Source of the DNA: an archaeon
GTDB taxonomy: Archaea; Thermoproteota; Nitrososphaeria; Nitrososphaerales; Gagatemarchaeaceae
Length of the DNA: 64,000 nt
Assembly: GCA_016432545.1 (NCBI GenBank)
Contig: CP066694.1
Span: 124,001 to 188,000, forward strand
Direction: 5' to 3'
The translations under genes and the position numbers were made by a program. Positions 9,988 to 23,401 of the stretch are shown one piece after another; position 1 is the first letter of the stretch; the number at the start of each line of letters is the position of its first letter. The notes beneath the pieces were generated by a model. That model did no database searches and was not told where the DNA came from. It saw only the letters and a list, made by a program, of their open reading frames with translations.

Positions 9988-10048
9988 CGAACGCCGACCA
10001 GCTCTTAATTGGCTAAAAGACTTGTCCGGGAGGCAGGGCCGACCCCAT

Positions 10049-10633
10049 TCAGCTTCCAGAAGACCGCTGCCGTATCAGCGCGGCGATGTCTTCCATCTTT
10101 CGCTCTTCCGCGAGGACTAGCGCGGTCTTTCCTTCGTAGTTCTTGGCTTCCAGGCTCGGGGATGCGTTTTCGAGCAGCCATGCCGTCGCCTCCGCCCTTC
10201 CCCTCGAGACTGCGTTGTGGAGAGCGAGAGTTGCTCCCTTCGTGGCGCCCTTGTCCCACACCATCCTGCAGAGCTCGACGTCGCCGCTCAGGGCCGCGTG
10301 GGGAAGCAGTGGAATCCCGTGAGCGCCGACTGCCTCAGACATGCTCGGGTCTCTCGAAAGCATCTCTTCTACAACCTTTTTCTTGCCTAACATCGCCGCC
10401 GTGCAGATGCTCAGGGGAGCGCCCTTCTCTAGGAGGAACTCTGCCACTGGCGCCGCTCCAGTCTGAGCCGCAGCCTGAATCGCCGACTCGAAGTCGTTCT
10501 CCCCCCACTGGTAGACCACGTTGAGCAGGGAAGGGTTCTCTTCGAGCATCGCCTTGACCCTCGGCAGGTTCCCGTGCCCCATTATCACGAACTGCTTTAC
10601 GACCTCCGATTTCGGCCCCAAATCGTCCGCCAA
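10049..10633 (-). CDS. Ankyrin-repeat protein
   Basis: 194-aa soluble protein built of about five ankyrin-like repeats, for example a segment ending AAPVAEFLLEKGAP, then HAALSGDVELCRMVWDKGA, ALHNAVSRGRAEATAWLLEN and NYEGKTALVLAEERKMEDI. No enzymatic domain or membrane segment is visible. Ankyrin proteins bind other proteins; the partner is unknown. TTG start. It sits between the helicase and the DUF885 gene on the same strand. Ankyrin repeats are uncommon in archaeal genomes but not unprecedented. Confidence 0.75.
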   Translation of the reverse strand: MADDLGPKSEVVKQFVIMGHGNLPRVKAMLEENPSLLNVVYQWGENDFESAIQAAAQTGAAPVAEFLLEKGAPLSICTAAMLGKKKVVEEMLSRDPSMSEAVGAHGIPLLPHAALSGDVELCRMVWDKGATKGATLALHNAVSRGRAEATAWLLENASPSLEAKNYEGKTALVLAEERKMEDIAALIRQRSSGS

Positions 10634-10656
10634 CTCTCTCGATCCACTCCCCGGAC

Positions 10657-12357
10657 CTACTTAGACTTCGCGTAATCTCCAAGGATCTGCCTCAGAGACT
10701 CGAGGGGAACCGCTCCGTCGCTCAAGACCGCGTCATGGAACTTCTTGATGTCGAACGAGCTTCCCAGGGACTCTTCCGCTGCGGCTCTCAGGCGGCGGAT
10801 CTCGAGCTGCCCTGTCTTGTATGCGAGCGCCTGCCCGGGCCAGGTGATGTACCTATCCACCTCGTTCACGATGTTGTTCTCGGCCAGCGCGGAGTTCTCC
10901 AACATGAACTTGATCGCCTGTGCCCTCGTCCAGCCCATCGCGTGCATCCCGGTGTCGACCACCAGGCGACACGCCCTCCAGGAGTCATAGGAGAGGACGC
11001 CTATCCTGTCCAGGTCGGACGAGTACAGGCCCATCTCGTCCGAGAGCCTCTCAGTGTACAGGCCCCAGCCCTCGATGAACGCAGTCACCCCGCTGTTCTT
11101 CCTGAACTCCGGTATCCCCTCCAGCTCCTGGGCGATCGCAATCTGAAGATGGTGCCCAGGGATGGATTCGTGATAGGCCAACACCTCCGCTTCGTACCTA
11201 GGCCTTGTCTCGGGGGCATAGGTGTTGATGAAGTACTGCCCCGGCCTCGAGCCGTCCGCTGCCGGCTGCCTGTAGTACGCGATAGTCGAGTGCTTCTCCT
11301 CGTGCTCGCCCATCCGGACGACCACGCAGTCGGTCTTGGGGAGCCGCCCGAACCACTTCCCCATCGCCGCCTTGGCTCTGGCCAGCGCAGTCTCCGCCTT
11401 TTCCTGGACCTCGTCCCTGCTGCTGAAATAGAGCGAGGGGTCGGTCCTCAGCTTCTTGAGAATCTCTGGCCTGTCCCTTGTGCCAAAGACCTTCTCGCCC
11501 AGGACCTCCATCTCCCCGTTGATCCTCGCGACCTCCCTGAGCCCTGTCTGGTGCAGCTCTTCGGGGGCGAGGTCCAGCGATGTGTGATATCTTATCAGCT
11601 TGGCATAGGCCTCTGCGCCCCCCGTGATGTGAACGATTCCCGGCTTTTCCTGCGGTCGCGCATGGAGCAGGATGTCGCCCCGCAGAAACTCCAGGTATTT
11701 CCTGAACGCAGGGCGGACCGAACTGTCTACGGCACCGGCGACAGATTCCCTGAACGCCTTTAGCTCGGACTCCTTCCAGTCCGGATGTGCGACTTGCAGA
11801 GCCTTCAGCATGGGCCAGTTCCCTTCCGGCTTTGAGAGCGTCCCTTCAAGCTCGTCGATGACCTTCGCGACGCAGTCTCGGACAGCAACCCTTCCGGACT
11901 TGTACCCTCTGCTTAGGTTCGAAATGTGCTGGTCCATGTACGGTCCGAAGGCACTCAACCTCGCGGCGAACGCGGTCCCTTCCACGGGGCTCCGGACGGG
12001 CTGCAGCCCTTCGAGGTTCAGCAACTCGACCTGTATCCCCTGAAGGGGGTCGACCGTCCACTCTTCGAGAGAACACTTCGAGTAGTCGGCCTGCGCGCGG
12101 GCCTCAACGACCAGTGCGGAGAGAGTCAGACGCCCCGAGCCGGTAAGGGCTTCCGCCCTTATCCTTGAGCACCTCGCCAGGATCTCCTCGTAGGCGCTCT
12201 CGCGCCTGCTCCTTCCCGCTGGAGAGATGTCTGAGAGTCGGGAGTCGAACCTCCTGTCTCCGATCACGGTCGCGAAGATGGGGTTCTCCTCGAGGACGGT
12301 CTCCCAATAGTCTGCAGCCGCCGTGGCCAGTTCTGCTGCCTGGTCCGAAGTCTTCAC
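10657..12357 (-). CDS. DUF885 family metalloprotease-like protein
   Basis: About 566-aa member of the DUF885 family, predicted zinc-dependent hydrolases/peptidases. The diagnostic motif EVLAYHESIPGHHLQIAIAQ (HExxPGHHLQ) lies about two thirds along, followed by FIEGWGLYTERLSDEMGLY. The open frame extends upstream to 12579, but the first 74 codons look non-coding. I chose the GTG at 12357 because the protein then begins with a normal helix (VKTSDQAAELATAAADYW) and a TATA-like AAAAATAC (12381-12388, minus strand) lies about 24 nt upstream. No signal peptide is seen with this start, so it is probably cytoplasmic. Substrate unknown. Confidence 0.8.
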   Translation of the reverse strand: MKTSDQAAELATAAADYWETVLEENPIFATVIGDRRFDSRLSDISPAGRSRRESAYEEILARCSRIRAEALTGSGRLTLSALVVEARAQADYSKCSLEEWTVDPLQGIQVELLNLEGLQPVRSPVEGTAFAARLSAFGPYMDQHISNLSRGYKSGRVAVRDCVAKVIDELEGTLSKPEGNWPMLKALQVAHPDWKESELKAFRESVAGAVDSSVRPAFRKYLEFLRGDILLHARPQEKPGIVHITGGAEAYAKLIRYHTSLDLAPEELHQTGLREVARINGEMEVLGEKVFGTRDRPEILKKLRTDPSLYFSSRDEVQEKAETALARAKAAMGKWFGRLPKTDCVVVRMGEHEEKHSTIAYYRQPAADGSRPGQYFINTYAPETRPRYEAEVLAYHESIPGHHLQIAIAQELEGIPEFRKNSGVTAFIEGWGLYTERLSDEMGLYSSDLDRIGVLSYDSWRACRLVVDTGMHAMGWTRAQAIKFMLENSALAENNIVNEVDRYITWPGQALAYKTGQLEIRRLRAAAEESLGSSFDIKKFHDAVLSDGAVPLESLRQILGDYAKSK

Positions 12358-12722
12358 CGCCCGATAGACCCTCGCACCTCGTATTTTTGCTCGGCGGTCA
12401 TAGGCAATGCGCCAGCAGACCCACCGGCTCGGTCGAAATACCCCGATTCTCGCCGTTCTTGATGAGAAGGCCCGTAATGGAGGGATACCACGAGAGAAAG
12501 ACGCGTCCAAAGCCCTATATGCGCACCGAGAACAGGAACAATTCATGACATACGCACGCCGTAGAAAGTGGGCTGTCATCCGAAGGCGAAGGCATTCATC
12601 CCATCAACACGCCCTAGAACAGCGTGCTTCCCGCGGACAAAAGACAGCCTAGGCACAGCGCCCGCTGACGGGTCTGCTAGTCAGTCTCCTCTCACTTCCT
12701 GGCCAGACAGGTGAGGGCCGCG

Positions 12723-13640
12723 TCAGGAGACCGTGTTGGGTGTACCGCCGGGCTCCTTCTGCAACTCACCCCTTGAACTGTTGGTGAATATTCCCGCCAA
12801 AACCAGAGCACCGCCCACCAAGAGCGACATTGAGAGCCTCTCGGCGAGGATGAGGACGCCCATGACCGCCGTGACAACGGGGATGAGGAGCTGAGCTAGT
12901 CCGCCGAGTGAGGAGGCGACTTTCCTCAAGACGCCATTCCAGACAACGTAGCTCAGTGCAGTGCTGACCGTCCCCATATAGAGAGCCAGGGCAAGGCTCG
13001 AGGGAGCTATGTCCGTCCACTGGGCGGTCCCCGCAATCGCGGTCCCAAAGACGCCTAGAGCAGCTGCCGCGATCCCGAAGAAGAGAAAACTGTTGTAGGT
13101 GTATCCGAACGAACCTCCAGAACTTCTCCCGTAAACGGAGTAGAGTCCCCAGGAGATCCCGGTCAAAGCCATCAACGCGACCCCCTCCAGCGAAGCCGTA
13201 CCAAGTCCGCCGAAAGTCAGGACTAGGATCCCGAGCAGTCCCAGAACGAGCCCTAGGACGACGCGGAAGGTAAGCCTCTCCCGCTCTTCCACCACCGAGT
13301 ACGAGGTCATCGTTATCACCACTGCCCCGTAGAAGACCAGGGCCCCGACGCTCGCAGGAATGAAGGCGTACCCGAACGAGATTGCGAAGGCGTACACTCC
13401 CAGGAAGAGCGCGCCGACCAAGTCACGACCGCCCGGCCTAGCCTTCTTGGTCTCTTTCGGAAACGCGGCGACCATCAGCTGGAGCGTCAGAAGCCCGCTG
13501 AGGAACCTGATCACCGTCAGGGGGAACGGACCGACGAGAAGGCTCGAGACGAGGTACCTCGTGATCACGCTATTGACTGCGAAGCTGGCTACTACGATGA
13601 CCAGAGCAGCAGGGACCAGGAATCCGCGCCGGACGGCCAT
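12723..13640 (-). CDS. EamA/DMT-family transporter
   Basis: 305-aa integral membrane protein with ten predicted helices in two EamA halves (about residues 8-145 and 155-290). Landmarks are ITRYLVSSLLVGPFPLTVIRF in the first half, and GTVSTALSYVVWNGVLRKV and LLIPVVTAVMGVLILAERL in the second. The family exports metabolites such as amino acids or moves drugs; the substrate is not readable. The 143-bp gap between this gene and the end of the intergenic run below DUF885 shows no clear feature. Confidence 0.85.
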   Translation of the reverse strand: MAVRRGFLVPAALVIVVASFAVNSVITRYLVSSLLVGPFPLTVIRFLSGLLTLQLMVAAFPKETKKARPGGRDLVGALFLGVYAFAISFGYAFIPASVGALVFYGAVVITMTSYSVVEERERLTFRVVLGLVLGLLGILVLTFGGLGTASLEGVALMALTGISWGLYSVYGRSSGGSFGYTYNSFLFFGIAAAALGVFGTAIAGTAQWTDIAPSSLALALYMGTVSTALSYVVWNGVLRKVASSLGGLAQLLIPVVTAVMGVLILAERLSMSLLVGGALVLAGIFTNSSRGELQKEPGGTPNTVS

Positions 13641-13694
13641 CGGACTCAGAGGTCCTCTGGACCGAAAGTTAAGCCCGACGGCTTCGTTCCTGTC

Positions 13695-15104
13695 CTAGGC
13701 TGCGGGTGATATGTTCTGGTTGATCCGGAAAATGTTCTCAGGGTCGTACTTCTTCTTCGCCGCCTGCAAGCGGCCGTAGTTCCCCCCGAAGTTGGCGGCG
13801 ACCCGGTTCATGTCGTCCCCGGCAGCGAAGTTGATGTATCCTCCCTCCTCTGAATACGGTGTCAGCGCCTTGTAATAGTCGCGGACCCACCGGGTGTTGC
13901 TCTCGTTCTGGGCGGGGTCAGGCCACATACCTGCAACCACGACCGCGTACTTCGCCTCTCTGTGTCCGAACGCGGTCGCGTCGGGCGCGACATCGTGCAC
14001 CGCGCCGTTGATCGAATAGATGTGGGTCGTCGAGTTCACGACCGGTACCTTGGGGCCGAATTTCATGTGCGCCTCTATCGCGCCATCGGTGAGGTCGCCC
14101 GCGAAGACTGCCTTCCAGTAGTGCTGAAGGCCTGGCGGAAGCAGCCCGTCAAAGAGGCTATTCAGTGCCGGAAAAGGCATGGGCTGGACGTACTCGGCCA
14201 CGACCGGGGCGGCGTCCCTCAGTGGCGCGATGGCCTTGCTCGCCTGGTCGGGTGGGCCCGTCCAGCAGACCACCATCGCGCAGAGCGTGTCTCCATGGCG
14301 ATTCTGCGGGATGAATGGCAGGGGAGGCGCGATCTGCCAGGCGAAGAAAGCACCCAGCTGCCGCGGGGCGCTCGCGATGTACTTGTCGTAGGCCCTCATC
14401 ACTGCAGGAGCGTCCTTCACCTCGAAGAAGATGGGCCCTCCAACGACGTCCTTGACCTTGTGCAGCCTGTACTCGAAGCTCGTGACCACCCCGAAGTTTC
14501 CGCCGCCTCCTCGAATGGCCCAAAACAGCTCAGGGTTCCCCTTCTCGCTCGCAGTGACGAACGACCCGTCGGCTAGCACGAGGTCGGCAGAGATCAGGTT
14601 GTCCAAAGTGAGGCCGGCGCCCCTAGAGAGATAGCCTATCCCTCCTCCCAACGTCAGCCCTCCGATGCCGGTCGTGGAGATTATTCCTCCGGGCGTCGCA
14701 GTTCCGAAGCCGTAGGTGGCGTGGTTCAGGTCCCCCCATGTGCAGCCTCCCTCGGCCCTCACGGTCATGGAAGCAGGGTCGACCCTGATGCCTTTCATCC
14801 TCGACAGGTCGATTACAAGAGCGTCATCGGCAGTGCCGAAACCGGGAACGCTGTGCCCTCCGCCGCGCATGGCCAGCGCCAGGCCGTCCTTCCTAGCGGC
14901 CTTCACGGCCACCATCACGTCCCCTGCATCCACAGGTCTGACGACGGCTGCGGGCTTCTTGTCTATCATAGCGTTGTAGACCTTCCTTGCCTGGTCGTAC
15001 GACCCTTCTCCGGGCAGGACGACGTCTCCTCTGAACTCTCCTTTCAGGGCAGCGACTGTGGCCGGGCCCATGGGCGCCTTCCCGGGTTGCATGGGCTCTA
15101 TCAA
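13695..15104 (-). CDS. FAD-linked oxidase (berberine-bridge-enzyme-like)
   Basis: 469-aa FAD-dependent oxidoreductase of the PCMH/BBE type. The FAD-binding PCMH domain (about residues 30-215) contains the covalent-FAD His in MRGGGHSVPGFG and the loop IGGLTLGGGIGYLSR. The C-terminal BBE segment reads KKKYDPENIFRINQNI. At the position where bicovalent members carry a Cys (before GGLTLGGG) the sequence is STTGIG, so attachment is probably through His only. Start TTG at 15104 overlaps the upstream fusion gene's TGA; an ATG four codons in is an alternative. Coupling to that gene suggests a shared redox or detoxification context. Confidence 0.85.
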   Translation of the reverse strand: MIEPMQPGKAPMGPATVAALKGEFRGDVVLPGEGSYDQARKVYNAMIDKKPAAVVRPVDAGDVMVAVKAARKDGLALAMRGGGHSVPGFGTADDALVIDLSRMKGIRVDPASMTVRAEGGCTWGDLNHATYGFGTATPGGIISTTGIGGLTLGGGIGYLSRGAGLTLDNLISADLVLADGSFVTASEKGNPELFWAIRGGGGNFGVVTSFEYRLHKVKDVVGGPIFFEVKDAPAVMRAYDKYIASAPRQLGAFFAWQIAPPLPFIPQNRHGDTLCAMVVCWTGPPDQASKAIAPLRDAAPVVAEYVQPMPFPALNSLFDGLLPPGLQHYWKAVFAGDLTDGAIEAHMKFGPKVPVVNSTTHIYSINGAVHDVAPDATAFGHREAKYAVVVAGMWPDPAQNESNTRWVRDYYKALTPYSEEGGYINFAAGDDMNRVAANFGGNYGRLQAAKKKYDPENIFRINQNISPAA

Positions 15105-16786
15105 CTCTCCGGCTTGCCCGCGGCTATGACGACAGACTCGGCACCGAAGGTCCTCGTCAGACGCTTTGTATTCTCCGAGGGACTGGACGCAAAGTAGTCC
15201 AGCCTCTTCACTATCTTGACGTCCTTGAACCCCGCGTCCTTGATGGTCTTGAGGTACTCGCTCTCGACCGCCGCTCCCCCGATGCAGTCGGCCCAGAGCT
15301 GGGGGACGAGGCCGCAGACCTTCTGGACGTTGCTCTGCACCACGATGTCAGAGATCTGGATTCTGCCTCCTGGCTTCAGCACTCGATAGATCTCACCAAA
15401 TGCTCCCTTCTTGTCAAGCACGAGGTTGAGAACGCCGTTGCTCGTCACCACGTCGACGCTTTCGTCCTCTAGTGGGATCTTCGTGGCGTCTCCCTTGAGA
15501 ATCTTCACGTTCTTCGCCCCCATCTTCTCGATGTTGGCGTTCGCTTTCTCTATCATCGCCTCCGTGATGTCGAGGCCGAAGACCTTGCCCTTGGGCCCGG
15601 TCCTAAGCGAGGAGAAGAGGACGTCTGTCCCAGACCCCGACCCTACGTCGAGGACCGAGTTCCCGGGCTTGATGGCCCCTGCTGCGTGAGGAAAGCCCAC
15701 CCCTGCGAAGGACTCGAGGGCCGACTCGGGTAGCTTCTCTATCTCGTCGGTATACCCAACGAACTTCAGGGCCTCTCTGCCGAGCGGAAAGTGGTACTTC
15801 TTCCTGGGGTTCGTGGCGACCTCAGTGTAAAGACCCTTCACCGCATTCGTAATGACCTCGTTGATCTTGCTTCCAGGCTGCGCCTCCGTTGTGCCCCCGA
15901 CGTGAGAGGCCTTCGCCTGTTCGATCGTCATGCTTGCCTTCTTTGAGGAGTACCTCCATCCCGCAATCCCGGAGCCGAACTCCCTCCTGTCTACGAGTCC
16001 GCCGTCCGCGAGTTTCTTCATCCTCCCTTCAATGTCGAAGGGCGAGACACCGAAGACCACCGCGAGTTCCTTGGGGAAGATGGTCTCCCATGAATGCCGC
16101 TCGAAGTACTCCAAGATGTCCACGGGGACCCGCTTGGTGAGTCGAGAGCCAGCCACCTTCTCGAGCGCCTCCTCGTGTTCCGCAGAATCGAAGACATTGC
16201 TGACCGCGAGCCCTCTCCCCGACTGCCTGTTCACGTACTTCAAAGTAAGGAAGCTCACGTCCATTTCCCCCTTGTCTTCTTCGAAGAGAGCCTTCGCCTT
16301 GCCCGATCTTATGTCGCGGACAAGTCGTTCGGGGTCAAGCCCTACCTCCTTTCCGACCCGGGCGAGGGCCTCCTCGCCCGACACGTCTCTGGCTTCTACT
16401 GCGACAATCTCCATCAGTCTGCGAAGGAACCTCTCAGCACCCTCCTCTCCCTGGAGTTGGGCGGCCTTGAAGGCGACGCAGGCGGGCCACGTGGACTTCA
16501 CTCCCGACTTCAGGTAGTAGCCAGGGTCGGCGGGCATCCCTGTCATTGAAACGCTCTCTGTCACCCACGCACGCAGCGCCTTGTCGTCGATAACATCGTA
16601 CTCCCTCCTCCACTCTGAGAGGTCGTTGGTGATTCCTCCCATCTTGTAGGTGACGCTGATCTGTTCCCCATACACCTCCCGAAGGCGGTTGAGGACTGGC
16701 TCGAGTCCCCAGCTCCACCAACACGACGGGTCTGCGAAGTGTATGACATCCACGAGAGCCTTCGTCCGCGCCATCTTGCTACTCAT
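15101..16786 (-). CDS. DsbA-like / winged-helix / ArsM-like methyltransferase fusion
   Basis: Three domains in one chain of about 561 aa. Residues 10-205 resemble DsbA/FrnE oxidoreductases (FADPSCWWSWGLEP), but the CxxC is CWWS, lacking the second Cys. Residues 215-285 look like a winged helix (ELAVVFGVSPFDIEGRMKKL). Residues 300-561 are a SAM methyltransferase like arsenite methyltransferase ArsM: GNSVLDVGSGSGTDVLFSS, GLDITEAMIEKA, RVLKPGGRIQISDI and LWADCIGGAAVESEYLKTI, with the Cys typical of ArsM. ATG 16786 is chosen because a TATA-like GCATATAA (16811-16818) lies 24 nt upstream; GTG 16792 is possible. Arsenic or other thiophilic metalloid handling is inferred. Confidence 0.75.
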   Translation of the reverse strand: MSSKMARTKALVDVIHFADPSCWWSWGLEPVLNRLREVYGEQISVTYKMGGITNDLSEWRREYDVIDDKALRAWVTESVSMTGMPADPGYYLKSGVKSTWPACVAFKAAQLQGEEGAERFLRRLMEIVAVEARDVSGEEALARVGKEVGLDPERLVRDIRSGKAKALFEEDKGEMDVSFLTLKYVNRQSGRGLAVSNVFDSAEHEEALEKVAGSRLTKRVPVDILEYFERHSWETIFPKELAVVFGVSPFDIEGRMKKLADGGLVDRREFGSGIAGWRYSSKKASMTIEQAKASHVGGTTEAQPGSKINEVITNAVKGLYTEVATNPRKKYHFPLGREALKFVGYTDEIEKLPESALESFAGVGFPHAAGAIKPGNSVLDVGSGSGTDVLFSSLRTGPKGKVFGLDITEAMIEKANANIEKMGAKNVKILKGDATKIPLEDESVDVVTSNGVLNLVLDKKGAFGEIYRVLKPGGRIQISDIVVQSNVQKVCGLVPQLWADCIGGAAVESEYLKTIKDAGFKDVKIVKRLDYFASSPSENTKRLTRTFGAESVVIAAGKPES

Positions 16787-16810
16787 CCTCACGTGATTGC
16801 CGTTCGTTGG

Positions 16811-16838
16811 TTATATGCTGGGCGGGAGTGGTCCGCCC
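16811..16838. promoter_or_regulatory. Promoter with perfect hairpin between divergent genes
   Basis: On the minus strand GCATATAA (16811-16818) is a TATA-like box for the fusion gene. Directly behind it GGGCGG (16820-16825) and CCGCCC (16833-16838) form a perfect 6-bp inverted repeat with a 7-nt spacer, in the position of a B-recognition element/operator. A regulatory role is inferred. Confidence 0.35.
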
Positions 16839-16904
16839 GCAATCTACAGGGTCCTGATTGTTCTCCGCCAGGAGTGAGAACTGCTTTGGGCAAAAGAATG
16901 AATT

Positions 16905-17333
16905 ATGGGAGCCGAAGACCACGAGAGGCAACGCTTGATCGACCATCTCAACGCCTACGTCATCCCGGTGAGAGACTTGGAAAAGTGCATCTCGTTTTAC
17001 CGAGACACACTTGGACTGCAACTCAAGAACAAGGAAGACGACTTCGCCTATTTCGTCTTCGAAAAGACGGGCGCGCCTGGACTAGGGTTGCTAAAGATCG
17101 AAAGCGCCGCCAAGCTAATCTCGGAGGCACAGGTGCGGTCAGCCGAGGAAACGGTCCATCGGACGTACTTCGCCGTCTTCGTCGAAGACGTCGACAAAGA
17201 GTACCTGGAACTGGAGGCAAAGGGGGTACACTTCGTGAAGCCGCCTACGACTCAACCCTGGGGTCAGCGGATTGCGTACTTTGAGGATCCTGAAGGGAAC
17301 CTGTGGGAAATCTCCCACTTCCTCAAGAAGTAG
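16905..17333 (+). CDS. VOC-family (glyoxalase-like) protein
   Basis: 142-aa vicinal-oxygen-chelate protein with paired beta-alpha-beta-beta-beta units. First unit: HLNAYVIPVRDLEKCISFYR and DTLGLQLKNKEDDFAYFVF. Second unit: YFAVFVEDVDKEYLELEAKG, WGQRIAYFEDPEGNLWEISH. The terminal DPEGNLWEI carries the usual metal-ligand Glu. Members are glyoxalases, dioxygenases or drug-binding resistance proteins; substrate unknown. It faces away from the ArsM-like fusion and marks the left edge of the repeat-punctuated accessory region. Confidence 0.8.
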   Translation: MGAEDHERQRLIDHLNAYVIPVRDLEKCISFYRDTLGLQLKNKEDDFAYFVFEKTGAPGLGLLKIESAAKLISEAQVRSAEETVHRTYFAVFVEDVDKEYLELEAKGVHFVKPPTTQPWGQRIAYFEDPEGNLWEISHFLKK

Positions 17334-17474
17334 TGTTACTCCAAGACCAATTGTGTTCTCAGGGTCAGAGCGGTTCTTGTCAGGCATCGGGATGGGTCCT
17401 TCCGTACCAGAGTCTCTCGCACTTAGACGGGGACTTGTCCCTCTCGCTGGCGATCCGCGAGCATGTCCTGAACC

Positions 17475-17522
17475 AGTGTGCGGTGGGGTGGGACTTCAGC
17501 ACAGTGAATTGTGTCGAAACCT
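17475..17522. repeat. tRNA-Leu 3'-end-like repeat, copy 1
   Basis: AGTGTGCGGTGGGGTGGGA (17475-17493) matches the plus-strand image of the tRNA-Leu 3' end (23313-23330) with one extra T. It is followed by CTTCAG, an imperfect hairpin CACAGTGAATTGTG (17500-17513) and TCGAAA. The same block-hairpin-purine order recurs in copies at 18758, 21102 and 22521. It lies between two VOC genes. Confidence 0.6.
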
Positions 17523-17576
17523 AGGTCTGGTAGCCCGAGGAAAACCCTTTTCCTCTAGAGCTACGTAATAGATTTG

Positions 17577-17939
17577 ATGGCGAAATTCAGTCACATCCAC
17601 ATCAATGTCTCCGATCTCAGCAAGTCACTAGAATTCTACGGCGAAAAGCTAGGCCTGAAGACCGACAAGATAACTGACACAATGGGTTCAGTCAGTCTGG
17701 AACCTGGTTCTCTGGACCTCGACCAGGTGCCAATAGAGAAACTCTCGGAGGTTTCGACGACAAAACACACAACGTTGGCTTTTTCCGTCCCGAGCATAAA
17801 CGATTACTACGATGAAATCAGTCTTAAGGGCGTTCAGACACTGGACAAACCAACGCGTAGGGCATGGGGTTCCTTCAACTTCTACCTGAAGGATCCTGAC
17901 GGGTACATGCTAGAAGTCGAGCAGCAGGAGAGCAGTTAG
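17577..17939 (+). CDS. VOC-family (glyoxalase-like) protein
   Basis: 120-aa VOC protein: KFSHIHINVSDLSKSLEFYG with a first-strand His, EKLGLKTDKITDTMG, then FSVPSINDYYDEISLKGVQ and WGSFNFYLKDPDGYMLEVEQ, where the last Glu is the usual metal ligand. It differs clearly from the VOC gene 240 bp upstream, so it is not a recent tandem copy. The start is one of ATG 17577 or TTG 17574. It lies between repeat copies 1 and 2 and has lower GC than the flanking housekeeping genes. Function beyond the fold is unknown. Confidence 0.78.
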   Translation: MAKFSHIHINVSDLSKSLEFYGEKLGLKTDKITDTMGSVSLEPGSLDLDQVPIEKLSEVSTTKHTTLAFSVPSINDYYDEISLKGVQTLDKPTRRAWGSFNFYLKDPDGYMLEVEQQESS

Positions 17940-17996
17940 TTTTGCTTATCCTGGCTATCGCAAGAGTCCAAAGGCCTGGGTGAAACTCATATTCGA

Positions 17997-18031
17997 GGGC
18001 TGGGACTTTGGCCCGGCATGCTGGGCAGAAA
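17997..18031. repeat. Repeat copy 2 (GC-hairpin class, partial)
   Basis: GGGCTGGGACTTTGGCCC continues into GGCATGCTGGGC and GAAA. The stretch from TGGGACTTTGG to GGGC is nearly identical to copy 4 at 20096-20126. The quasi-palindrome GCCCGGCATGCTGGGC can fold on itself. Only the GGGACTT part of the tRNA-like block is kept. A frame through this repeat gives a spurious N-terminal extension to the following gene. Confidence 0.5.
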
Positions 18032-18090
18032 TTCAGGCATGGTCAAGTCGCCACATCAGCGATAAATATCAAGTCCTTCTATTTCCACTC

Positions 18091-18558
18091 GTGGCCGAAC
18101 CAAGAACGGAGAAGGCGTACGTCAAGTACGCTTGGGTTATCTTTTTCATATTCGGCTTGCTTTCCGTGATATCCTCCCCAATCGGGCTCCTGGGCATACC
18201 GCCCAATCCGCCATCGCCAGAAAGTGCGACGGGCCTGACCTCCAGCCAGATTGCGGCTCGAATCCCGGGCATATCGGACTACATAGGCTCGATTGCGAGG
18301 CAACTCGGAAATTTCATGCTTGCGATGGGGGTCTTGACTATGGGCATCGCGGCTGTCCCATTCAGGAGAGGAGAAAAATGGGCTTGGTACATCTTCTGGA
18401 TTCTTCCCATCTTGCTCATCATCCAACTAACCAATAGCTTCCTTTCAACTCCGGGTGGTGGGTTCGGATGGCAATTTGACTTCGCCTTCATCTTCATCAT
18501 ACTGCTTGGGCTTTTCCTTCCTTACCGCAAGTTCTTTCCGAAGAGACGACAGGACTGA
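18091..18558 (+). CDS. Small integral membrane protein, unknown
   Basis: 155-aa protein with about four hydrophobic helices: KYAWVIFFIFGLLSVISSPIG, a second around SIARQLGNFMLAMGVLTMGI, then WYIFWILPILLIIQL and FDFAFIFIILLGLFLPYRKF. It ends with a basic tail. The open frame extends to a GTG at 17980, but that extension only translates repeat copy 2, so I place the start at GTG 18091, about 22 nt after a TATA-like ATAAATAT (18062-18069). No recognised family. It sits between repeat copies 2 and 3. Confidence 0.6.
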   Translation: MAEPRTEKAYVKYAWVIFFIFGLLSVISSPIGLLGIPPNPPSPESATGLTSSQIAARIPGISDYIGSIARQLGNFMLAMGVLTMGIAAVPFRRGEKWAWYIFWILPILLIIQLTNSFLSTPGGGFGWQFDFAFIFIILLGLFLPYRKFFPKRRQD

Positions 18559-18757
18559 ACTGAGAGCAGCTCTGGGACCTGGCCGCAGAATATTGGGTTC
18601 AGGGTACACGGTCCCGTCGGCAGCCAACCCAATCTCTTCAACGCAGTCGAAGAACCCCATCAGGTGACGTGCTGATTTTTTCATCGCTCGCTCAGGAAGA
18701 TCCCGGCAATTTGGTGGACGGCCCGTATTCTGGGGCAGAATCCTCACAGCAATAAGG

Positions 18758-18805
18758 AATGTGCGGGGGGTGGGATTACAGGACAATTCATTGTGTTGAA
18801 AGGCT
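18758..18805. repeat. tRNA-Leu 3'-end-like repeat, copy 3
   Basis: AATGTGCGGGGGGTGGGATT differs by one base from tRNA-Leu positions 23313-23332. Similarity continues into the tRNA's own flank (CAATAAGG here versus CAATAAAG). It is followed by ACAG, the hairpin ACAATTCATTGT (18784-18795), and GTTGAAAGG. The 200 bp to its left hold no gene I can support. Confidence 0.7.
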
Positions 18806-18866
18806 TCTTGAGCTGAATCGCCCAGTTGGGTTGCGCGGGTCCCCTGGAAATTCCAAGGTCAATTCC

Positions 18867-19043
18867 TTACTTTTCAGGTTCGCGGAGTTCTCGGCGCAAC
18901 ACCTTGACGCTCTCTAGGAGCAGGATCTCCTCCGGAAGAGTTTCGGGCGAAAGCCTCGAGGCTAAGATTACCCTCTTCATCATGATTGGGTCGAGCTGTG
19001 AAAGGAGAGATTGAATCTCATCTCTTTCGTTTCCATCACCCAT
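18867..19043 (-). CDS. Small soluble protein, unknown
   Basis: 58-aa ORF beginning MGDGNERDEIQSLLSQLDPI and ending LLLESVKVLRRELREPEK, highly charged and helical. Its ATG lies inside the stop region of the upstream 51-aa ORF (8-nt overlap), a translational-coupling arrangement that supports both as real. No family recognised. Both genes lie between repeat copies 3 and 4. A toxin-antitoxin-like or small regulatory pair is conceivable but not supported by motifs. Confidence 0.5.
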   Translation of the reverse strand: MGDGNERDEIQSLLSQLDPIMMKRVILASRLSPETLPEEILLLESVKVLRRELREPEK

Positions 19044-19191
19044 CCTTCCTCACAGGCCTTGTAGCCTTGCGCCTAGCGACCCAAGCGTCAACAATTGAAT
19101 TCAACCATCTCTCCACTTCGGGCTGAGACCGTGATAGCTTGATCCTCAAGTACGCCAGGGCTTCCTGATACTCCTGCTCCGAGGCCTTCAT
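19036..19191 (-). CDS. Small soluble protein, unknown
   Basis: 51-aa ORF, MKASEQEYQEALAYLRIKLS and then a Trp-containing helix (VERWLNSIVDAWVARRKATR), basic C-terminus. A TATA-like sequence, CATATATC on the minus strand (about 19211-19218), lies about 22 nt upstream of the ATG, fitting a leaderless transcript. It overlaps the downstream 58-aa ORF by 8 nt. No family recognised. Confidence 0.5.
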   Translation of the reverse strand: MKASEQEYQEALAYLRIKLSRSQPEVERWLNSIVDAWVARRKATRPVRKDG

Positions 19192-19299
19192 TTCGGACTT
19201 TCATTCGTTAGGAGATATATGAATCTAGAGTGCCAATCGCCTTTTCCAGCAATAAGATGCTCGAAAGTGTTCCCGAATTCTCCAATGGGTGACTGTTCG

Positions 19300-20058
19300 T
19301 CAGAGCTTCTCGTAGACGTCCAGCCACCCTGACCACTTCACAAGGGAGCGTCTGTTCACTAGTTCCCAGCCGTTTGATGCCATGATGGGTTCGAGTATGA
19401 ACGGCGCCCAGATAGCGTGCCTGAACTCCACCCTGTTCGTTCCGTCTTCCCATTCACTCTCGACTATCAAGTCTCCCCTTTCTGAGTCGTAATCCCTGGT
19501 CCTGCTTACAACCGACTTTCCTTTGTCCTTTTCGATGAGTTTAGGCTTCCATTTTCTACGAAACAGGAGACCTGCTACGTCACGATAATCGGTTATGAAA
19601 TGGGAGCCTTTCCCAACGACTGGGTCGACTCTACTAATCAATCTGACGAAGTCTCGAGTGTCAAAGTGGCACATTGCATTTCCAAGGAGTGTCACGGAGT
19701 CAAAGGATCCTTCAACTCCACAGCTGATTATGTCGCCCAGGATGAACCTGTTACGCGACCGTATCTTCTTTGCGAATGCGGTCGCTGATTCGATCATGTC
19801 TCCGTTGATATCAATCCCTACGTAACCATGACCATCCTTTTCGATGATGAAGCCGAGAATGCCTCCTCCGCAGGCCAAGTCCAAGACCTTTCGCCCGAAG
19901 TACTTGCGATTCGCACGGTAGAGTTCGGAGAGCTCTTTCACCCGCCTTCTGTTTGACATCAAGTATCTCCCGAAGTCGTCGTGCTTGCGGTAGTAGACTT
20001 CGATATCCTGACGAGCCACACCTATCAGCAAAGCTTGCACGCTAAATTTCTTGTCCAT
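19300..20058 (-). CDS. Class I SAM-dependent methyltransferase
   Basis: 252-aa methyltransferase. Motif I is KVLDLACGGGILGFIIEKDG (about residues 63-82), then YVGIDINGDMIESATAFAKK for motif II, NRFILGDIISC, and FDSVTLLGNAMCHF for the post-I region. The last third is beta-rich (DLIVESEWEDGTNRVEFRHA) as in small-molecule methyltransferases. Substrate unknown. Start set at ATG 20058; a TTG at 20076 is in frame. The upstream region runs straight into repeat copy 4, so its promoter (TATTTTGC at 20073-20080) adjoins the repeat. Confidence 0.8.
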   Translation of the reverse strand: MDKKFSVQALLIGVARQDIEVYYRKHDDFGRYLMSNRRRVKELSELYRANRKYFGRKVLDLACGGGILGFIIEKDGHGYVGIDINGDMIESATAFAKKIRSRNRFILGDIISCGVEGSFDSVTLLGNAMCHFDTRDFVRLISRVDPVVGKGSHFITDYRDVAGLLFRRKWKPKLIEKDKGKSVVSRTRDYDSERGDLIVESEWEDGTNRVEFRHAIWAPFILEPIMASNGWELVNRRSLVKWSGWLDVYEKL

Positions 20059-20081
20059 CCAGGAATTCTTGAGCAAAATAG

Positions 20082-20132
20082 AGTGTGCGGGGGGTGGGAC
20101 TTTGGCCCGGCATGCTGGGCGGAAACAGGCTA
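20082..20132. repeat. tRNA-Leu 3'-end-like repeat, copy 4
   Basis: AGTGTGCGGGGGGTGGGA (20082-20099) is identical over 18 nt to 23313-23330, which covers the tRNA-Leu 3' end and 4 nt of its flank. It is followed by CTTTG, the GC-rich quasi-palindrome GCCCGGCATGCTGGGC (20105-20120) and GGAAACAGG. This right half is shared with copy 2 rather than with copies 1, 3 and 5. Confidence 0.75.
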
Positions 20133-20137
20133 TGATG

Positions 20138-20284
20138 TCCTAGGAAATCGATGCTTGTCCATGCTCCAGCGTACACATGGGCCCCGATCTGTTCCATCAG
20201 CCCGAGGTCTTTTCTGTAGTTCCAGATTTCTGCAACTTTGCTTTTCCCGAAGCGGAAGATGCTTGCTCTAGGGGACGATGGACG
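20138..20284 (-). pseudogene. C-terminal fragment of a SnoaL-like protein
   Basis: The minus strand encodes IFRFGKSKVAEIWNYRKDLG followed by LMEQIGAHV. This has the shape of the C-terminus of SnoaL/ester-cyclase proteins and parallels IFRIANGRLAEHW...LGMMEQLGV of the intact gene at 22695-23123. An in-frame stop lies just upstream (20285-20287), no start codon precedes the fragment, and the frame runs on through repeat copy 4. I read it as a truncated remnant. Confidence 0.45.
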
Positions 20285-20345
20285 CTATCTGCTCATCCAA
20301 TCTCTCTATGAAGGCTTCGGCCATCGAGAGGTTCACGTTCCTAGA

Positions 20346-20753
20346 CTAGGCATTTGCAACCATGGTTGGGGAGCGAACCTGGGATTCCGAATAGACCAAT
20401 GGAGCGCAGAGGAGAACTGCCACTGAGGAGATCAGTACTATGAGTTCACTCAGACTTATTGGAGGAGGTACGGGCCTCAAGAAGAAGAGCCCGGCTTGGT
20501 CTCCTGGGACCAAGAAGATATACGAGATGGCCGCGATGCTCCCGAGAATCGTCGCGGTTCGGGGTCTCTTGAAAATGAGGACGAAGGAAGCGATGCCCAG
20601 TATTACTGTGGCCAAGAAAATAGGGATCAATGCGTAGGACCTAAGCGTTGAGGGAGGGCGAGTCTCCAATCCGGCAGGGGTCAAAAGGAAGCCGGTTACT
20701 GCCATCACACCGAACGCGACCACAAGGATCTTGCGGTTTCTAGAGAATTCCAT
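20346..20753 (-). CDS. Small integral membrane protein, unknown
   Basis: 135-aa protein with four hydrophobic helices: ILVVAFGVMAVTGFLLTPAG, ALIPIFLATVILGIASFVLI, TATILGSIAAISYIFL and LIVLISSVAVLLCAPLVY. Layout resembles many archaeal four-helix proteins of unknown role. ATG start. A TATA-like CTTATAAC (minus strand, about 20793-20800) lies about 40 nt upstream. It sits between repeat copies 4 and 5; the 200 bp upstream contain no gene I can support. Confidence 0.6.
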   Translation of the reverse strand: MEFSRNRKILVVAFGVMAVTGFLLTPAGLETRPPSTLRSYALIPIFLATVILGIASFVLIFKRPRTATILGSIAAISYIFLVPGDQAGLFFLRPVPPPISLSELIVLISSVAVLLCAPLVYSESQVRSPTMVANA

Positions 20754-20958
20754 CTGATTGTCTGGGCGATTGATTGAGAGTGGTTATAAGTATCTCCGTG
20801 CGCTATTCAGATCAAGACCTTCTAGGCGCCCTCCTCCGATCCTGCAGAACCTATTTCAACCCACCACAATATCAAGATGCTGGGAATTTGGATTAAGCCG
20901 CGGACGGGGTAAGGTTGAGGATTAGAGCAGAAGCGAACTTCCCGCTATTGGTAGTTGC

Positions 20959-21042
20959 CTAACGTCCCAGCGAGGAGACTATCACAAAGAGTATGCCAAC
21001 CAGCCCTATGACCGAGGCGGCGATAAATCCTCCTGGTCGCAA
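20959..21042 (-). CDS. Possible 27-aa single-helix membrane peptide
   Basis: TTG-started ORF reading LRPGGFIAASVIGLVGILFV then IVSSLGR and a TAG stop: one hydrophobic helix with a basic end. It resembles other tiny archaeal membrane peptides, but no promoter is clear and so short a frame may be chance. Reported as tentative. Confidence 0.25.
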   Translation of the reverse strand: MRPGGFIAASVIGLVGILFVIVSSLGR

Positions 21043-21101
21043 CCATATCGTCTGAAATTCATCACCCTAATGACAGTCTAAGTGGAAACTTTACGGCCTT
21101 A

Positions 21102-21147
21102 AGGATGCGGGGGGTGGGACTTCAGCACAATTTATTGTGCTCAAAGC
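21102..21147. repeat. tRNA-Leu 3'-end-like repeat, copy 5
   Basis: AGGATGCGGGGGGTGGGA (21102-21119) matches 16 of 18 positions of the tRNA-Leu 3'-end block. It continues with CTTC and a perfect 8-bp hairpin AGCACAAT-TT-ATTGTGCT (21124-21141), then CAAAGC. It lies just past the stop of the epoxide hydrolase pseudogene. Confidence 0.7.
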
Positions 21148-21279
21148 AGGAGCGACCACGGCCCGGAACGCCATGCAGTCGACGGGACTGCTGAACTCCA
21201 TGTACATAGGAAATACTCAGAACTCGAATTGAGGCTGGGGAATTTGGGACGGGTCTCGAAATGAGGTGATGCAAAGGGC

Positions 21280-22443
21280 TCACCGAAGGGGCCTGAAGAA
21301 GGTCCTGATCTCGTCCGCAAGGAGACGAGGCTCTTCCGTTGCTGCAAAGTGACCGCCAGTGGGATGACCTTCCAATATCGGATGTTGTACACCCGTTCTG
21401 CCAGCTCCCTGGGATGAGCATGTGGAAAGACGTAGTCGTTCGCAAACAGAGAAGCGCCCGTGGGCACTTCGATCCTTCCTTTCCTCCAGGGCATGGGAGG
21501 GCTATGGTACCCTTCGTAGTATCCACGAATCGTTGAGCCGATTGTCTCGGTCGTCCAGTATATCATCACAGTTGTCAGGAGTTCGTCCTTGGTGAACCTG
21601 GTCTGCACATCCCCATTCGTGTCTCCCCAAGCTCTGTACTTCTCGACGATGTACGCCGCCAGTCCGACCGGCGAATCGTTCAACCCGTACGATACGGTCT
21701 GGGGCTTCGTTCCCTGGATGTGGCCGTATGCCCCTTCTTCCCGCTCCCACTCGTCGAGCAGGCTGAGAAATTCCCGTTCCGGCTCGGAGAGCTCCGACCT
21801 GTCTGGCAACGGAACGGGGAAGCGCAGGTCGTTGTTCATGTGGATCCCAATCAAGTCCCTTGGGTAGAGATAGGCTAGGTCGGTGGTTACTCCTGCACCC
21901 ACATCTCCACCTTGAGCACCGAATCGCCGATAGCCCAACACGTCGGTCATCAGGGAATGCAGGATTTCAGCCCTGTTGGTCCAACCCTTCTTGGATTGTC
22001 TATCGGAGAAACCATAGCCTGGGAGAGAAGGTATCACTACGTCGAACGAATCTTCCTTCTCGCCGCCGTTCGAAACCGGATCGGTCAGGTATGGCACCAG
22101 CTTCAGCATCCCGGCAAAGCTATCAGGCCATCCGTGCAACAGCAGAATTGGCATCGGTTTGGGGCCCTTGCCCCTCATGTGAACGAAGTGTATGTTCCAT
22201 CCCAGTGCTTTGGCCTTGAATTGCGGGAAGCTGTTCAGTCTCCTTTCCTGAGACCGCCAATCGAATTTGTTTAGCCAGTAGTTCGTGAGTTCCTTCATGA
22301 AAGACAGGTGACGTACCTTGATCCCAGTCGGCACCCTCCGCTTCATCTGGCCAGCGGGTTCTGAACAGCCTTGTCTTCAGGTCGTCTATTATTTCCTGTT
22401 TGACATGTATTTCGAACGGCTCAGCGACCTGACTATCCGTCAC
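21280..22443 (-). pseudogene. Epoxide hydrolase, broken by two frameshifts
   Basis: An N-terminal-domain epoxide hydrolase (alpha/beta hydrolase) spread over three frames. Frame 1 (GTG 22443 to about 22315) has the EHN start PFEIHVKQEIIDDLKTRLFR and TRWPDE. Frame 2 (to about 21375) has the body: FDWRSQERRLNSFPQF, LLLHGWPDSFAGM, the nucleophile region QGGDVGAGVTTDLAYLYP. Frame 3 ends with the catalytic-His region PTGGHFAATEEPRLLADEIR and TFFRPLR, stop at 21280. Single-base indels near 22305-22325 and 21360-21385 would restore one chain of about 387 aa. A TATA-like sequence (ATAATTAT, about 22467-22474) lies at promoter distance. Sequencing error is the alternative explanation. Confidence 0.75.
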
Positions 22444-22520
22444 GGCAGAGGAGGGTTCTAGAGTCTGATAATTATGTGTCGAGTTGCCAGTCGGATACTT
22501 GGCCCTAGACCTACGTTACT

Positions 22521-22570
22521 GTGCGGTCGCCGGGACTACAGCTCTACATGTAGAGTTGAAATCCCACCGC
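22521..22570. repeat. Repeat copy 6, full cruciform form
   Basis: GTGCGGTCGCCGGGACTACA leads to a perfect 14-nt palindrome CTCTACATGTAGAG (22542-22555) and then TTGAAA. The outer arms also pair: GGGA (22532-22535) with TCCC (22562-22565) and GCGGT (22523-22527) with ACCGC (22566-22570). The order GTGCGG...GGGAYTACAG-hairpin-TTGAAA is the same as in copy 3. A weaker relative (TGGGACTTACGCA, TTTGCG) follows at about 22612-22656. The rest of 22444-22694 has no gene I can support. Confidence 0.5.
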
Positions 22571-22694
22571 CATGCCAGGCCTCATCCGACTGAGAATGAC
22601 GTGAACCCATGGTGTTGGGCGGAGAACTGGGACTTACGCAGGATGATTTGCGGTCCCTGGAACTTTGAACCCGTGAAGGAAAAAGATAGCTCCT

Positions 22695-23123
22695 TCAAGT
22701 AGAGCGGGGTCGCTGGGTCACTCCCAGCTGCTCCATCATCCCCAACCGATCAATCACGGTCCAGTGTTCTGCCAATCTGCCGTTCGCAATCCTGAAGATG
22801 TCAATGACCTCCATCTGGAGGTGCTTTCCTGTGGGCGCCACGCCCATGTATTCCCCTTGGTGCGTCGCATAGAGAGTCTTCCTAGTCGCCACCATATCTT
22901 CCTCCGCAATCATGTTGTTGATGACCATGTGAAAATCGGGAAACGACTTACGGACATACAAGAACATCTGTTTCGTTCCATCACGGTTAGGTGGGAAACT
23001 TGGAAGAGGATTGTGATCCACGAAGTCGGGCGCAAAGATCTCCTCGATTAGCTCGCTTCGCCCTGCGTTTTGGATCTCCTCGATAAATCGCTGCACTACA
23101 CCCTTATTCTCTTCTAGCGTCAT
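22695..23123 (-). CDS. SnoaL-like / ester cyclase family protein (NTF2 fold)
   Basis: 142-aa NTF2-fold protein of the SnoaL/ester-cyclase group: helix ENKGVVQRFIEEIQNAGRS, EEIFAPDFVDHNP (conserved D-x-x-x-HNP), RKSFPDFHMVINNMIAEEDM, then GKHLQMEVIDIFRIANGRLA and EHW. Bona fide SnoaL proteins close polyketide rings, but most archaeal and soil-bacterial members have unknown substrates. No polyketide genes are nearby. ATG start; a TATA-like CATATATG lies about 30 nt upstream. Intact counterpart of the fragment at 20138-20284. Confidence 0.8.
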   Translation of the reverse strand: MTLEENKGVVQRFIEEIQNAGRSELIEEIFAPDFVDHNPLPSFPPNRDGTKQMFLYVRKSFPDFHMVINNMIAEEDMVATRKTLYATHQGEYMGVAPTGKHLQMEVIDIFRIANGRLAEHWTVIDRLGMMEQLGVTQRPRST

Positions 23124-23316
23124 TAGACATCAATCAAAGCTGGCTTTCAGACCCATATATGTATAGGTCGAACGCTAGCCTTGCGACAAAATTAGTTCCG
23201 CACCGGGCTGATGAATTCTGGCTGAATGTACGTCATGTAGACGTACCTCCTCATGTTGTGCCTCACCGGGTGTGAAGGACGGGACTTCGACTTGCCGCTT
23301 TGAGACCAATAAAGTG

Positions 23317-23401
23317 TGCGGGGGGTGGGATTCGAACCCACGAACCCCTGAGGGACGAGGTCCTAAGCCTCGCGCCGTTGACCAGGCTGGGCGACCCCCG
23401 C
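23317..23401 (-). tRNA. tRNA-Leu (UAG)
   Basis: 85-nt class II tRNA on the minus strand. Acceptor GCGGGGG (5' end at 23401) pairs with CCCCCGC, discriminator A at 23317. T-arm GTGGG-TTCGAAT-CCCAC, anticodon stem CGAGG/CCTCG with loop CTTAGGA, giving anticodon UAG, and a long variable arm (TCCCTCAGGGG region) as expected for leucine. The 3' CCA is not encoded. Its 3' end faces the accessory region, and partial copies of this end recur there. A weak repeat-like stretch (GGGACTTCGACTTGCCGC, 23281-23298) lies immediately downstream. Confidence 0.92.

Follow-up and report, generated by a model that had tools for sequence, protein, structure and literature searches.

Small gene cassettes behind archaeal tRNA genes: probable serial capture at tRNA 3' ends, integron-like in its working

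Introduction

Why should copies of a tRNA end recur between the small genes that lie behind that tRNA? The question is raised by an array next to tRNA-Leu(UAG) in an archaeon of the family Gagatemarchaeaceae (Nitrososphaerales), found within a stretch of 64,000 nucleotides (hereafter the window), which corresponds to C1:124001-188000 of a single-contig genome of 1,504,237 bp (GCA_016432545.1, contig CP066694.1); the genome is circular, since the contig ends overlap. A first-pass annotation of the window had proposed that an 18-nt copy of the tRNA 3' end divides the region into cassette-like units, as might result from repeated integration at the tRNA or from an integron-like process. Here, we find that each repeat is a two-part site, consisting of a tRNA-derived core and a covarying hairpin arm, and that such sites form co-oriented arrays behind several tRNAs in this group of soil and groundwater archaea. 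We consider it likely that the arrays arise by serial, integrase-driven capture of cassettes that carry no integrase of their own, so that they work like integrons without being integrons.

Results

Anatomy of the site

The copies of the 18-mer on which the proposal was based are real. It matches exactly at 23313-23330 and 20082-20099, with one mismatch at 18758-18775 and with two at 21102-21119; four matches compare with 0.10 expected by chance, and none of 100 shuffles reached four. The copy at 17475 indeed has a one-base insertion. The sequences at 17997 and 22521, regarded earlier as partial relatives, are related, but they turned out to be full members of the array (17988-18036 and 22518-22566), the latter with a tRNA-Gly-type core. 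Likewise, the identification of the repeat with the tRNA-Leu 3' end holds for its core, but it missed the hairpin arm and the use of at least three tRNA classes.

The complete site is about 46 nt long, and only its left ~16 nt are derived from the tRNA. This part is the plus-strand image of the tRNA 3' end, comprising the 3' strand of the T-stem, the acceptor strand and a few nucleotides past it. The following ~30 nt make up a separate conserved arm, in which GGGAYTW is followed by an 8-bp stem closed by a 4-nt loop and then by AAA. The arm stems vary in sequence among copies, and pairing is kept through compensatory changes. In the alignment of 18 Leu/Gly sites, 84% of stem cells are paired, whereas shuffling leaves 68% paired, and none of 500 shuffles attained the covariation score of 0.50. 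Some of these sequences had been chosen partly for pairing, and the test was therefore redone on sites found through the left part alone. Among 98 such non-tRNA sites, 41 form at least six of the eight stem pairs, whereas shuffled arms gave a mean of 12.8 and a maximum of 21 (1000 shuffles). The covariation scores of both the Leu/Gly and the Lys classes lie above all 500 shuffles and all slid versions.

The cores found correspond to the 3' ends of tRNA-Leu, tRNA-Gly(UCC) and tRNA-Lys(UUU). Sites of the Lys class have the tRNA-Lys 3' end (TGCGGGCCCGACGGGAATCG) as their core; their arm is longer and includes both a hairpin that covaries and a CTAGAANTGGTATCGAAA box that is conserved. We also observed another type of repeat, GGGATTCGAACGTGCCTACCCCCGACAGTGGACAT, following a tRNA-Leu-like core (L123 at 2127, 8547 and 10089; L124 at 914, 3151 and 5932; L128 at 7866). 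It has no obvious hairpin of the kind seen at the window sites (R1).

The array in the window and its counterparts

The window has six sites, all in one orientation as the first-pass annotation had stated for its copies, off the 3' end of tRNA-Leu(UAG). This tRNA lies on the minus strand, so that its 3' end does face the array, and its 3'-terminal 16-22 nt are the core copied through the array. In the segment 9500-24000, the covariance model scores the six sites at E-values, which are rough, of about 1e-11 to 1e-14, and nothing else in that segment reaches this level. An Rfam scan of the window returned tRNAs only. The anchor and the sites are as follows:

23316-23401, minus strand: tRNA-Leu(UAG), the anchor (ARAGORN; Rfam RF00005); the conserved backbone of the relatives ends here
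22518-22566, plus strand: site 6, tRNA-Gly-type core and hairpin CAGCTCTA/TAGAGTTG (R1 54.5 bits, E 2e-14)
21102-21150, plus strand: site 5, Leu-type core and hairpin CAGCACAA/TTGTGCTC (R1 55.9 bits, E 1e-14)
20082-20130, plus strand: site 4, Leu-type core (18/18 with the tRNA end) and hairpin TGGCCCGG/CTGGGCGG (R1 54.9 bits)
18758-18806, plus strand: site 3, Leu-type core and hairpin CAGGACAA/TTGTGTTG (R1 50.1 bits)
17988-18036, plus strand: site 2, degenerate Leu-type core and intact hairpin (R1 48.9 bits)
17475-17524, plus strand: site 1, Leu-type core with a 1-nt insertion and hairpin, at the distal end of the recognisable array (R1 45.1 bits)

With the covariance model, further groups of sites were found in the same genome, behind tRNA-Lys(UUU) (C1:1446299-1446409) and behind the intron-containing tRNA-Gly(UCC) (L115 8753-8847). 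Wherever the anchor tRNA can be identified, the array is located off its 3' end and the sites are antisense to it. Neighbouring sites are co-oriented in 19 of 21 pairs of the Leu/Gly class (p 1e-4; median spacing 789 bp) and in all 26 pairs of the Lys class (median spacing 893 bp), and unit sizes cluster at about 0.6-1.0 kb. Arrays at tRNA-Gly contain Gly-type cores only, and those at tRNA-Leu mostly Leu-type cores. Two sites are often found at a distance of 57-70 bp, with no intervening gene and commonly with a Leu-type core followed by a Gly-type core (L112 747/804; L117 12994/13056; L122 5691/5757; L124 2167/2228); they are possibly empty or nested insertions.

A strong match to the site is present in 18 of 400 genomes of the order. 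Fourteen of these belong to the family of the window genome, where the distribution is patchy. In L090, from another family, the hairpin is nearly that of the window site at 21102 and the left flank is different. No exact match to the pattern used was found in viral contigs. One of five matches in a genome collection (L168, in a record titled Acidobacteriota) was discarded, as it lacks the hairpin and looks like a chance match.

Array B of the window genome (L111 17469 to L112 11009; C1:1457469-1471009) encloses a block of conjugation/pilus-like genes; the cassette array probably contains an integrated element of conjugative type at this place. A tRNA-Arg predicted by ARAGORN near this array was dropped, the real anchor being an intron-containing tRNA-Lys.

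Cassettes as units of movement

Had gene order behind tRNA-Leu(UAG) been conserved, the idea of cassette gain and loss would have failed. It is not conserved. In relatives, the tRNA and the genes upstream of it are syntenic with the window, and homology breaks off at 23315-23317. The distance from the tRNA to a conserved helicase gene is 2.9-13.3 kb overall and 2.9-8.0 kb in the relatives, with different gene content. The relatives are probably mostly metagenome bins, and the named ones are.

When the fetched stretches were compared by BLAST, homology blocks ended inside the core in both genomes 42 times compared with 0.05 expected, although these ends are not all independent and include both the conserved tRNA backbone stopping at its own core and cassettes. 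One such case is a 1,019-bp PIN-domain cassette with a 20-bp core at each end, for which the copy in genome G022 is 99.4% identical to that in G024 and 95.3% identical to that in G015, while the flanks in the three genomes are unrelated. At the same tRNA-Lys, the tRNA-proximal neighbour of this cassette is 763 bp long in G022 and a different 983-bp unit in G024, the tRNA backbones being 92.9% identical. Further Lys-class cassettes, whose edges lie at the cores, are 86-93.5% identical from one array to another. For the Gly class, the last cassette before tRNA-Gly in the window genome is 95.6% identical over 1,162 bp, through the core, to a cassette of G025; past the shared core, the former runs into tRNA-Gly and the latter into a hairpin arm. 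Thus, comparison of cassette content, suggested at the outset as a check, revealed gain, swapping and sharing with exact core boundaries, with the best examples coming from the tRNA-Lys class and the tRNA-Gly class and not from the window's own cassettes.

As for the window itself, the unit with tiny open reading frames (ORFs; 18897-19191) recurs in G023 (72% identity) and G027 (69%), and in both a core follows 86-87 bp after it. The segment 20272-20840, with a membrane-protein gene, has counterparts of 92% identity in two genomes of another genus. We set this match aside as a cassette transfer because no sites surround it there; it supports gene transfer only. Separately, G028, G029 and G015 (L243, L244 and L245), which are classified as different species, have 10.8 kb of a Lys-class array in common at 99.9% identity. 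This may reflect recent transfer or mis-binning, and the region was counted once.

Cassette content

Most cassettes consist of one gene or a toxin-antitoxin pair and lack an integrase. A match to toxins or toxin-antitoxin systems (PIN, HicA, ParE and partners) was found in 10 of 14 Lys-class cassettes examined, one of them in the window genome. Toxin-antitoxin cassettes are likewise known in chromosomal integrons. The cargo in the window encompasses a glyoxalase-family protein, two membrane proteins, a methyltransferase with two tiny ORFs, an epoxide hydrolase and a SnoaL-like protein, arranged in the following units:

22567-23315, plus strand: tRNA-proximal unit with a SnoaL-like gene (22695-23123, minus strand; PF07366, E 4e-37)
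21151-22517, plus strand: epoxide hydrolase unit (gene 21141-22443, minus strand; PF06441, PF00561)
20131-21101, plus strand: small membrane protein unit (gene 20346-20753, minus strand)
18807-20081, plus strand: two tiny conserved ORFs (within 18867-19191, minus strand) and a methyltransferase (19300-20076, minus strand; PF13649)
18037-18757, plus strand: membrane protein unit (the listed ORF, 17980-18558, starts over site 2)
17525-17987, plus strand: glyoxalase/VOC unit (gene 17574-17939, plus strand; PF00903, E 1e-17)
9988-23315, no strand: variable region from the conserved helicase gene (8422-9987; PF00270/PF00271) to tRNA-Leu(UAG)

The unit 18807-20081 is probably two fused cassettes, because in two relatives the tiny-ORF part has a site 86-87 bp further on. 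The membrane protein of unit 18037-18757 has no match in Pfam. The epoxide hydrolase gene occupies two frames, its N-terminal part lying in the other one, and looks like a frameshifted pseudogene. Within the variable region, the ORF at 15101-16792 combines a DsbA/thioredoxin-like domain with an S-adenosylmethionine-dependent methyltransferase domain (PF13743, PF13847).

Candidate recombinases

The first-pass annotation had noted no integrase in the window and had concluded that any such enzyme would have to act in trans. There is indeed no tyrosine recombinase among the called ORFs of the window, but a search of the whole genome found a candidate integrase adjoining a cassette site elsewhere. 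Action in trans is plausible. A tyrosine recombinase profile built from 14 sequences (A5) finds at least one such protein in 35 of 46 family genomes and two in the window genome. For several integrases, the start coincides with a tRNA 3' end or falls within some 60 bp of it, and a core-like match lies no more than 800 bp from 19 of 52 integrases, compared with 5 when reversed patterns are used. Integrases beside attachment sites are found in L120 (47 bp from tRNA-Leu CAA), L156, L271, L147 and L256; those of L120 and L156 abut a tRNA. In the window genome, the integrase ORF C1:247-1677 overlaps a Lys-class site, with two more sites outward; the predicted protein retains most of the catalytic pattern but perhaps not all of it, as VLRR stands in place of the usual HxxR. 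The integrase ORF of the window genome starts inside the tRNA-like site (L256 1628-1677), and its predicted N terminus CGPDGTRTRTG is the translated tRNA end, which may not be part of the real protein.

Discussion

Based on these observations, we propose the following scheme. A tyrosine recombinase would act on a core of ~16-20 bp, which begins where the T-loop begins and extends outward through the 3' end of the tRNA gene. A cassette in the form of a small circle, with the core followed by its own hairpin arm, would recombine with the core in the tRNA gene. The core copy of the cassette would then restore the tRNA 3' end, and the old copy would be pushed outward with the arm of the cassette attached to it. 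Repeated insertion would build up a stack in which every site points the same way and the most recent cassette lies closest to the tRNA. Since most cassettes lack an integrase, the enzyme is probably supplied in trans, and the integrase genes found beside tRNA ends or beside sites elsewhere are candidates for its source. The hairpin would probably serve as the binding arm on the element side.

Several observations do not sit well with this scheme. For sites at C1:540-544 kb and 808 kb, the stretch examined contains no tRNA that matches as an anchor, and 2 of the 21 neighbouring Leu/Gly pairs are in opposite orientation. Neighbouring sites at one tRNA may differ in core type (Leu or Gly), which simple exchange between identical cores does not explain. 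In addition, the nearest loci syntenic with the window array are only about 70% identical to it, and no close strain exists for a direct test of cassette presence and absence, so that the mobility of the window's own cassettes is suggested by one shared cassette of 72% identity together with the other arrays. Profile A5 finds no integrase in the site-bearing genomes G016, G061 and G063, which are draft assemblies. Finally, what the sequences show directly is the anatomy and common orientation of the sites, the breakpoints at cores, the sharing of cassettes and the presence of integrase genes near tRNA ends or sites, whereas excision, circles and enzyme activity are inferred.

Would a more ordinary history produce the same picture? 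Full-size elements might have been inserted repeatedly at the tRNA and later been stripped of most genes, so that the remaining 3'-end scars and isolated genes mimic cassettes, with the hairpin being no more than the attP arm of one integrase lineage. Integrases targeting tRNA 3' ends are known in Thaumarchaeota (PMC6563490), integrase-bearing elements are present at some of these tRNAs, one window gene (the epoxide hydrolase) appears broken and array B encloses a large block of conjugation-like genes. However, small units with exact core boundaries are kept across genomes at up to 99.4% identity, which indicates that they move at that size, their sizes cluster around 0.6-1.0 kb and the toxin-antitoxin genes are intact. 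We therefore regard accretion followed by decay as unlikely; it differs from serial cassette capture mostly in how small the mobile unit is. Even less probable, in our opinion, is that the 46-nt core-plus-hairpin inserts alone between genes, in the manner of repetitive extragenic palindromes or miniature inverted-repeat transposable elements, and only resembles cassette punctuation. The hairpin with its conserved foot, the intergenic location and the site pairs 57-70 bp apart would be in keeping with such an element. Yet the breakpoints between genomes at the cores include cargo (42 compared with 0.05 expected), both the orientation of the sites and the type of their cores go with the adjacent tRNA, and Y1 (HUH) transposases, for which we searched, are absent from the window genome and most array-bearing relatives. 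We found neither lone insertion nor scatter regardless of tRNAs. Genome-wide scatter away from tRNA-Leu had been foreseen in the first-pass annotation as grounds for rejecting its proposal, but the sites form co-oriented arrays that are mostly off tRNA 3' ends, not only that of tRNA-Leu, with a few lacking a recognisable anchor. No orthologous intergenic regions differing solely by the 46-nt element were seen, close strains being lacking. It is similarly hard to credit that homologous recombination between repeated tRNA ends shuffles the genes with no dedicated site-specific enzyme. Unequal exchange between tandem cores could delete or duplicate units, but the cores are only 16-20 bp long, tyrosine recombinases abut the same tRNA ends, and this process predicts neither unrelated cassettes at precise core edges nor conserved hairpin arms. 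Repeated integration at a tRNA 3' end into an integron-like array, as originally proposed, has thus withstood the observations that could have overturned it.

By membership, the arrays fit tRNA-targeted integrative elements with tandem accretion, as the units are bounded by direct repeats of the tRNA 3' end with the intact tRNA at one end, and related elements encode an integrase adjoining the attachment site. The tRNA-integrating mobile elements of Thaumarchaeota (PMC6563490) and the tyrosine recombinases of archaea (PMC8371274) share with them the phylum, the tRNA 3'-end target, including intron-containing tRNAs, and the enzyme family. A term search of these two open-licence papers gave no description of a conserved hairpin arm or of multi-unit arrays in which each unit has a single gene and no integrase. 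The nearest parallel that we found in the open-licence literature is provided by the ssrA islands of Dehalococcoides (PMC3146451). Here, too, islands are stacked in tandem next to a tRNA-like gene, and ~20-bp copies of the 3' end of that gene mark their boundaries; insertion is likewise in the T-loop, a conserved motif accompanies the repeat and some islands lack the integration module. Unlike the archaeal arrays, they are bacterial, have ssrA as their single target and carry an integration module with a serine recombinase and several genes, whereas the arrays described here use several tRNAs and tyrosine recombinases and have about one gene per unit and a covarying hairpin arm. Indeed, the targets here are tRNA-Leu, -Gly and -Lys, and the adjacent genes match the tyrosine recombinase profile; serine recombinases were not searched for.

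In Streptococcus, cis-mobilizable elements and tandemly accreted integrative and conjugative elements, also cited in PMC3146451, similarly form stacks of integrase-less units that bear attachment sites, occupy one target and can be moved in trans. They differ in being bacterial and in consisting of kilobase islands from conjugative elements, and we know of no conserved hairpin arm in them. In marine cyanobacteria, the tycheposons of Prochlorococcus are cargo elements that target tRNAs and carry a recombinase of their own.

Integrons, including archaeal ones (PMC9668308), resemble the arrays in having co-oriented single-gene cassettes, sites that combine a conserved part with a variable hairpin and an integrase that is often absent from the array. 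Both the variable yet base-paired hairpin and co-oriented single-gene cassettes moving as units are found in our arrays as well. However, the conserved part of attC is the RYYYAAC/GTTRRRY pair and the dock is attI beside intI, whereas here they are the tRNA 3' end and the tRNA gene, respectively. The RYYYAAC (R'') / GTTRRRY (R') pair is not conserved in our alignments of 18 (A3) and 23 (A6) sites. It is tempting to speculate that an integron-like system arose independently in archaea, with the tRNA 3' end as attI and core-plus-hairpin as attC. The hairpin would then be recognised by its shape, perhaps as extruded single-stranded DNA, so that stems can differ, and dedicated tyrosine recombinases would gather toxin-antitoxin pairs as well as single genes at several tRNAs of one genome. 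We offer this only tentatively and think it rather doubtful.

If serial capture at tRNA ends is correct, it is a route, recognisable and open to searches, by which a poorly cultured group of archaea acquires single genes, and it shows how ordinary integration at tRNAs could give rise to integron-like arrays. The hairpin that covaries next to the core leads to a testable prediction on how a recombinase can recognise structure instead of sequence. Moreover, because the arrays lack attC motifs, integron finders are expected to miss them, and the core-plus-arm rule would find them.

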